Shown: positions 17,145 to 19,665 of the stretch, piece after piece
Layout: each line of letters opens with the position of its first letter
Numbering within the stretch: the first letter of the stretch is position 1
Source of the DNA: an uncultured Gammaproteobacteria bacterium
GTDB lineage: Bacteria; Pseudomonadota; Gammaproteobacteria; CAMYKB01
Direction: 5' to 3'
NCBI GenBank assembly: GCA_947258875.1
Contig: CAMYKB010000035.1
Span: 29,062 to 62,986 of the forward strand
DNA length: 33,925 nt
Translations under genes and position numbers: made by a program
Notes under the pieces: generated by a model
What the model saw: the letters and a program-made list of their open reading frames with translations, nothing else
Databases searched by the model: none
Told to the model about the DNA's origin: nothing

Positions 17145-18227
<1,083 letters not shown>

Positions 18228-18252: not shown

Positions 18253-18268
18253 AGGGGGCCGAGTCATT
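18253..18268 (+). promoter_or_regulatory. Shine-Dalgarno and apparent ATT start of mreC
   Basis: AGGGGG (18253-18258), close to AGGAGG, is seven bases ahead of ATT (18266-18268). The spacing is ideal for this ATT, not for the later GTG at 18320. No ATG, GTG or TTG exists in frame between the preceding stop and 18320. Confidence 0.65.
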
Positions 18269-19177
18269 AAGCCGTTATTCGTCATTGGGCCTTCCGTAAT
18301 CTTCAAGCTGATTGTACTCGTGATTATCTCGATCGCATTGATGACGATCGATCATCGCAGCGCCCACCTCGCCCCTGTCAGGTCAGTGCTGGGTTTTATG
18401 CTAAGCCCCCTGCAGTATGTGGTTGACCTGCCGGCACGTGCGGGCTTTGTGGCCTCCGACCGCTTCACTACGCGCCAGAATCTTATGCACAATAATGAAA
18501 CCCTGAGCGCGGAACGCGTGTTACTGCACGGCAAACTACAGAAATTCAATGCCTTGGAGCAGGAGAATATCCGCCTCAGGCAACTTCTAAAAACAGCAAC
18601 ACGCTTCGAGCAGGAACAATTCCTGATTGCCGAACTGTTATCGGTAGACCTGGATCCCTACAAGCAACGTATCATGGTTAACAAAGGCAGCCGTGATGGT
18701 GTCTTCGTTGGACAACCCTTGCTTGATACTCAAGGCGTAATGGGACAAATCATGCACGTCACGCCACTCAGTTCTACTGCTATTCTTATTTCAGACCCCA
18801 GTCACGCCATACCCGTTAAGATCGACCGCAACGGCCTGCGCACGCTGGCGGTGGGCACTGGCGGTCCCGAACGACTGGAGCTACAGTACATCCCGACCAA
18901 CTCCGATATCGAAGTCGGTGATATCGTCAGCACTTCCGGGCTGGGCCAGCGCTACCCTGCCAATTACCCGGTCGCCAGGATCACGCATATTGAACGCCCC
19001 AGCGGCAAACCTTTTGCGATTGTCGATGCCCAACCGCTGGCGTTGCTGGATCGCAGCCGTGAAGTGCTACTGGTGTGGCCAAACTTCGATAACGAAACAC
19101 CGGCCACTGATGACGCTAGCAGTGAGGCAAGTGAGCAGGATGCTACGCCTGATCAGCCTTCCGGCGGAGCGAACTAG
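18266..19177 (+). CDS. mreC: Rod shape-determining protein MreC, probable ATT start
   Basis: MreC is a bitopic inner-membrane protein that links MreB to periplasmic wall synthases. The frame starting at ATT gives 303 residues opening [M]KPLFVIGPSVIFKLIVLV, which mirrors the conserved KPIFSRGPSLQ start of E. coli MreC; a membrane segment follows, then a coiled coil (ERVLLHGKLQKFNALEQE), then the paired beta domains with NKGSRDGVFVGQPLL, GVMGQIMHVTPLSSTAILISD and VGDIVSTSGLGQRYPANYPVA. The only standard start, GTG at 18320, would remove 18 conserved residues and half of the membrane helix, and has no Shine-Dalgarno site. mreD begins two bases after the stop. Confidence 0.93.
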   Translation: MKPLFVIGPSVIFKLIVLVIISIALMTIDHRSAHLAPVRSVLGFMLSPLQYVVDLPARAGFVASDRFTTRQNLMHNNETLSAERVLLHGKLQKFNALEQENIRLRQLLKTATRFEQEQFLIAELLSVDLDPYKQRIMVNKGSRDGVFVGQPLLDTQGVMGQIMHVTPLSSTAILISDPSHAIPVKIDRNGLRTLAVGTGGPERLELQYIPTNSDIEVGDIVSTSGLGQRYPANYPVARITHIERPSGKPFAIVDAQPLALLDRSREVLLVWPNFDNETPATDDASSEASEQDATPDQPSGGAN

Positions 19178-19179
19178 CC

Positions 19180-19665
19180 ATGGCATCATCCTTCACCCGC
19201 TTCCGTATCATCCTCATTACCTTCGTGGTGGCGATGCTACTGGCGATGATGCCGCTACCGGAGTGGGCCAGAGCATTCCGCCCGGAATGGGCATTACTGG
19301 TGTTGATTTACTGGACCATGGCCCTGCCCCACGATGTCGGTCCTGGCACTGGCTGGTTACTCGGGTTGTTCATGGATGTCGCCTACAGCAATCTACTGGG
19401 CATACACGCGCTGACCTATGCACTGGTTGCCTACCTCGTATTACACCTGCATCAACGCATTCGGATATTTCCACTGCAACAACAAATTATCGCCATTGGC
19501 CTCATCCTGCTGCCCTACACACTCATCCTGCTATGGATTGATGGTATCCGTGACCAGACCCAACCTGCGCTCGCCTATTGGGGACCGCTGATAACGGGCA
19601 TGCTGTTATGGCCGTGGATTTTTATACTGTTGAGAAAGGTCAGGCGTGGCGCGAATTTGAGTTAG
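19180..19665 (+). CDS. mreD: Rod shape-determining protein MreD
   Basis: MreD is a small polytopic inner-membrane partner of MreC in the elongasome. The 161-residue product has about five membrane segments, for example IILITFVVAMLLAMM and WALLVLIYWTMAL, with the family signature DVGPGTGWLLGLFMDVAYSNLLGIHAL and a basic end (RKVRRGANLS). Neighbours agree: it follows mreC by two bases. The usual next genes, mrdA (PBP2) and rodA, are not here; instead a convergent dynamin-like gene follows. A GTTAGC...GCTAAC hairpin covers the stop codon. Confidence 0.96.
   Translation: MASSFTRFRIILITFVVAMLLAMMPLPEWARAFRPEWALLVLIYWTMALPHDVGPGTGWLLGLFMDVAYSNLLGIHALTYALVAYLVLHLHQRIRIFPLQQQIIAIGLILLPYTLILLWIDGIRDQTQPALAYWGPLITGMLLWPWIFILLRKVRRGANLS

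Follow-up and report, generated by a model that had tools for sequence, protein, structure and literature searches.

The window analysed here, a stretch of 33,925 nucleotides from an uncultured Gammaproteobacteria bacterium, carries the genes mreB, mreC and mreD in this order, all on the plus strand (Table 1). While mreB was recognised by similarity, mreD was assigned by its position and its open reading frame. The identity of mreC, an essential cell-shape gene, is given by a match to the PF04085 profile of 135.3 bits (curated cut-off 28), and this is the sole such locus in the window's genome. The mreC frame differs from the one in which mreB ends at 18227 and stays open back into mreB, so that 363 amino acids could be read from an in-frame stop 61 codons 5' of an ATT codon. 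Inspection of the open reading frame revealed no ATG, GTG or TTG upstream of the GTG at 18320. The ATT is followed by AAG CCG TTA TTC GTC ATT GGG CCT TCC, which encodes KPLFVIGPS, and according to the alignment and the 7eft chain the N-terminal cytoplasmic block and the membrane helix of MreC are present only when the gene is read from this ATT. The 7eft chain, an MreC with the E. coli N-terminus, aligns to the window protein from residue 1. A preliminary description of this DNA had proposed an ATT start of mreC with AGGGGG seven bases 5' of it, and had pointed out that the first canonical codon in frame, the GTG, would cut 18 codons including the conserved block; both statements are confirmed in the sequence.

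Table 1. Features of the mreBCD locus, with positions counted from the first letter of the window.
Feature	Position	Strand	Details
mreB	17184..18227	+	ATG start, TAA stop 18225-18227; ORF list; 72.5% DNA identity to E. coli K-12 mreB
Shine-Dalgarno-like AGGGGG	18253..18258	+	7 nt 5' of ATT; anti-SD duplex about -9.4 kcal/mol
mreC start codon ATT	18266..18268	+	aligned codon ATT/ATC/ATA in most relatives, ATG in E. coli
mreC read from ATT	18266..19177	+	303 codons + stop; PF04085 E 2.7e-39; alignment; 7eft chain
GTG, first in-frame canonical candidate	18320..18322	+	18 codons in; rejected as main start
mreD	19180..19665	+	ATG start; ORF list

For comparison, mreC genes were taken from 370 genomes sampled across the class, and the starts of the best matches as well as of one genome per remaining family were read. 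Because this sample is not random, its nearer half being denser and its remote half represented once per family, counts are given by family. The relatives compared belong to other families of the class, none of them to the genus, family or order of the window, and the nearest is about 52% identical. In these relatives the aligned codon is ATC, ATT, ATA or ATG. A strict test, blind to the AUH codon itself (AUU, AUC or AUA), covered 189 gammaproteobacterial mreC loci whose N-terminus could be aligned (113 families), and looked for any ATG, GTG or TTG in the interval that follows the upstream in-frame stop and ends at the conserved Phe5. This interval is free of all three codons in 109 of the 189 loci (64 families). 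ATT, ATC or ATA is found within it in 107 of these 109, and in 98 the codon stands exactly four codons before the Phe, which is the position of 18266 in the window. By a looser count, 68 families have no canonical mreC start within 15 codons. The upstream in-frame stop is often as close as 1-10 codons, for example in TGA GTT ATC AAC, TAG ATT ATT AAA and TAA TTA GCC ATT AAA.

Among the families with an unambiguous start codon at the equivalent of 18266, 65 use AUH only, 20 use AUG only and one has both, while GTG or TTG occurs three times at this position. Initiation at the ATT thus has strong comparative support, as the same codon is ATT, ATC or ATA in most relatives examined. The preliminary description had held that ATG or GTG in relatives would speak against the ATT start; such relatives do exist, but only as a minority (the 20 AUG-only families), and the 65 AUH-only families show the opposite.

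The two kinds of start differ markedly in their Shine-Dalgarno (SD) sequences. The mean energy of anti-SD pairing is -7.2 kcal/mol at AUH mreC starts, compared to -3.2 at AUG mreC starts and -3.35 in shuffled sequence, and the difference between AUH and AUG starts is significant across loci (p 3e-9) as well as across family means (p 2e-7). Exact SD cores at AUH starts cluster at a spacing of 4-7 bases. When each AUG clade was paired with the closest AUH relative in a partial, weakly supported MreB-MreC tree, the SD was stronger at AUH in 15 of 17 cases (p 6e-4); a strict test of the association between SD and codon, confined to supported branches, comprised 3 pairs only. The mreC gene of E. 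coli begins with ATG without a recognisable SD. Because the AUG mreC genes mostly lack an SD, they look like the product of an evolutionary switch and not like a correction. One family (f33: L011, L156, L116) unites two ATG genomes without SD and one ATT genome with a strong SD, and lends itself to a test of the switch between AUH and AUG. At many AUH mreC loci, positions 18253-18258 of the window included, the SD core is of a GGGG type (AGGGGG, GGGGT, GGGGC) and not a plain GGAGG.

Several readings of the start region had to be weighed against each other. From the AUH codon to the next canonical codon, a pS of 0.52 and a pN of 0.11 (ratio 0.21) were obtained over 60 within-family pairs, while the bases from -45 to -15 differ at 0.67 in an ungapped comparison, which is near random, and the first downstream canonical codon is found at scattered positions in different species. 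Taken together, the low pN/pS ratio, the unconserved upstream bases and the lack of a fixed downstream codon indicate that translation begins at or beside the AUH codon. A true start at GTG 18320 with the block before it untranslated is for these reasons very improbable, although no canonical start precedes this GTG in frame and a similar choice has been made in a public P. aeruginosa record. Conserved residues 2-18 precede the GTG, and a start there would remove the conserved KPLFxxGPS block and part of the membrane helix; furthermore, the SD sites are in register with the AUH codon, and it is this codon with which the ATG of E. coli aligns. A sequencing or assembly error, by which an ATG was misread as ATT, had been the main alternative of the preliminary description and would need a single base only. 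It is rejected, since the equivalent codon in other families is likewise ATT, ATC or ATA; with this codon class in more than 60 families, single-contig genomes included, we regard its probability as negligible.

The AUH codon could also be an internal isoleucine codon of a protein whose own near-cognate start lies further upstream, and the frame in the window is indeed open for 61 codons upstream. Of the 29 families represented by two or more genomes, 12 mix T, C and A at the third base, with at least 38 changes among these bases needed on the tree, while AUG is mixed with AUH in one family only. Taken alone, this exchange without G would be expected at an internal isoleucine codon too; in combination with the close upstream stops it argues that a non-AUG start has been kept. 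Many relatives have their in-frame stop so near that no canonical start lies in between, the upstream bases are not conserved, and in sister lineages ATG takes the place of AUH at the same position. ATA accounts for 28 of 112 mreC starts, about twice the roughly 13 expected from the use of isoleucine codons inside these genes (p about 0.013), and this excess adds modest weight against its being read as isoleucine. We therefore consider an internal isoleucine codon no more credible than the start at the GTG. The comparisons suggest instead that a non-AUG start has been inherited and selected for mreC in much of the Gammaproteobacteria.

The neighbouring genes served as controls. In the operons of the same mreC set the mreB start is canonical in all 44 cases in which it was found, and the mreD start in 44 out of 45. 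As a positive control, infC starts with ATC, ATT or ATA in most of 30 genomes inspected; the infC gene of the window's genome (L244, G000:C32) has an ATC start following GGAGGAATAACTT, which is the expected infC pattern. For pcnB, taken as a second comparison gene, the starts are ambiguous in most genomes examined, with canonical candidates often in frame. In Proteobacteria outside the class, ATG, GTG or TTG is present in frame near the mreC start in 20 of 20 loci read. No known RNA element was matched around the mreC start in Rfam up to an E value of 1. An altered initiator tRNA was considered and rejected, as the initiator-like tRNA of the window's genome has a CAU anticodon and is 92% identical to that of E. 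coli.

To our knowledge, very few bacterial genes with a start at AUU, AUC or AUA have been described. Conserved AUH starts are known from infC, pcnB, ccpN, cvfC1 and rnhC, and judged by its sequence mreC appears to be an addition to this group, and an unusually widespread one: its AUH codon is conserved, has no usable canonical start beside it and follows a strong, well-spaced SD, as in infC. A search within the open-access literature found nothing on a non-canonical start of this gene. In infC, too, the AUH start is conserved and follows a strong SD; this gene differs in that it encodes the initiation factor IF3 itself and is autoregulated, whereas we know of no link between mreC and IF3. 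For pcnB of E. coli an inefficient AUU start limits protein synthesis, according to Binns and Masters (2002) as cited in PMC13009471. The weak AUH-class start of mreC resembles the one described there, and from its sequence it would limit synthesis in a similar way; the pcnB starts, however, are ambiguous in the genomes examined, while the AUH codon of mreC is clear and widely kept. In Staphylococcus aureus the starts of ccpN (AUA) and cvfC1 (AUU) were shown by Ribo-Ret and reporters, and they share with mreC a conserved AUH codon and an extended SD (PMC13009471). They belong to another phylum and have unrelated functions, and the case for mreC is comparative only. In Listeria monocytogenes rnhC (ATC) and infC (ATT) are, like mreC, conserved genes with a fixed non-canonical start, which in their case has been confirmed by experiment (PMC13068326); they are other genes from another phylum.

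In the reading we favour, to which we assign a probability of roughly 0.8, AUU 18266 starts mreC, the AUH start is inherited and selected, and the near-cognate codon would act as a throttle on MreC. The strong SD would place the ribosome at the AUU, which the ordinary initiator tRNA (anticodon CAU) would read with a third-base mismatch, and MreC synthesis would be held well below that of MreB despite the shared operon. mreC would then need a translation rate that is low and stable relative to mreB, and two routes may lead there, namely AUH with a strong SD or AUG without SD. The AUG lineages, E. coli among them, appear to limit the output by the near-absence of an SD. In S. aureus grown in poor medium AUU and AUA starts with a strong SD gave about 10% of the output of AUG (PMC13009471), and in E. 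coli an excess of MreC disturbs cell shape, which is partly relieved by MreD (PMC7793260). A conserved AUH codon in a central cell-shape gene, spread over a class including Pseudomonas, indicates that selection can keep near-cognate starts. The pairing of AUH with a strong SD on one side and AUG without SD on the other offers naturally occurring variants with which to test how cells set the output of a single cistron in an operon.

Because the codon is AUH, the mreC start would be expected to be sensitive to IF3: established IF3 biochemistry predicts that the factor disfavours initiation at the AUU of mreC, as it does at infC. It is possible, but rather unlikely, that mreC is in this way a target of the IF3 level like infC, so that wall elongation would be tied to the state of the translation machinery. 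The codon class is shared by mreC and infC in the same genomes, and GUG and UUG, which are tolerated by IF3, are nearly absent at the mreC start position. IF3 discriminates in vitro against weak pairing at the third base, as between AUU and CAU (PMC10158994). However, a fixed low translation rate accounts for the data equally well, and regulation by IF3 would have to be dispensable, as lineages have moved to AUG. Slightly more doubtful still is a scheme for the Gammaproteobacteria as a whole, in which an IF3-gated mreC start would serve as a check on the Rod (elongasome) complex, the state of the initiation factors would set MreC dosage and cell shape, and E. coli-type lineages would have been rewired to AUG without SD.

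Near-cognate starts are missed by annotation because ATG, GTG and TTG are commonly the only start codons that gene finders consider. In Pseudomonas aeruginosa mreC starts with ATC, within TAG GAG CGG ATC ATC AAA CCG CTA TTC, but in the record CP123788.1 (L299 219-267) the gene is annotated from a GTG 16 codons 3' of the AUC and lacks the conserved block. Other public records may share this error. Reading from the AUH codon would correct the N-terminus that public records give for MreC, which is part of the complex for cell-wall elongation. A further family (f146), which we read as Pseudomonas-like by its MreC sequences, has ATC or ATT at the mreC start throughout. The start is ATC in the Thiogranum and Thiohalobacter MAGs, and ATG in Aeromonas, Proteus and E. 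coli.

Two families depart from these patterns. In two genera of family f111 (L112, L104) mreC has an apparent GTT start, in L112 within GGAGG TTCGCC GTT AAA CTG; GTT is a still rarer codon, and a sister genus (L061) has ATT. In family f99 (L137, L147, L149) the apparent mreC start is an ATC right after a TAA (CTAAATC), with no canonical start, and lies three codons upstream of the usual start position.
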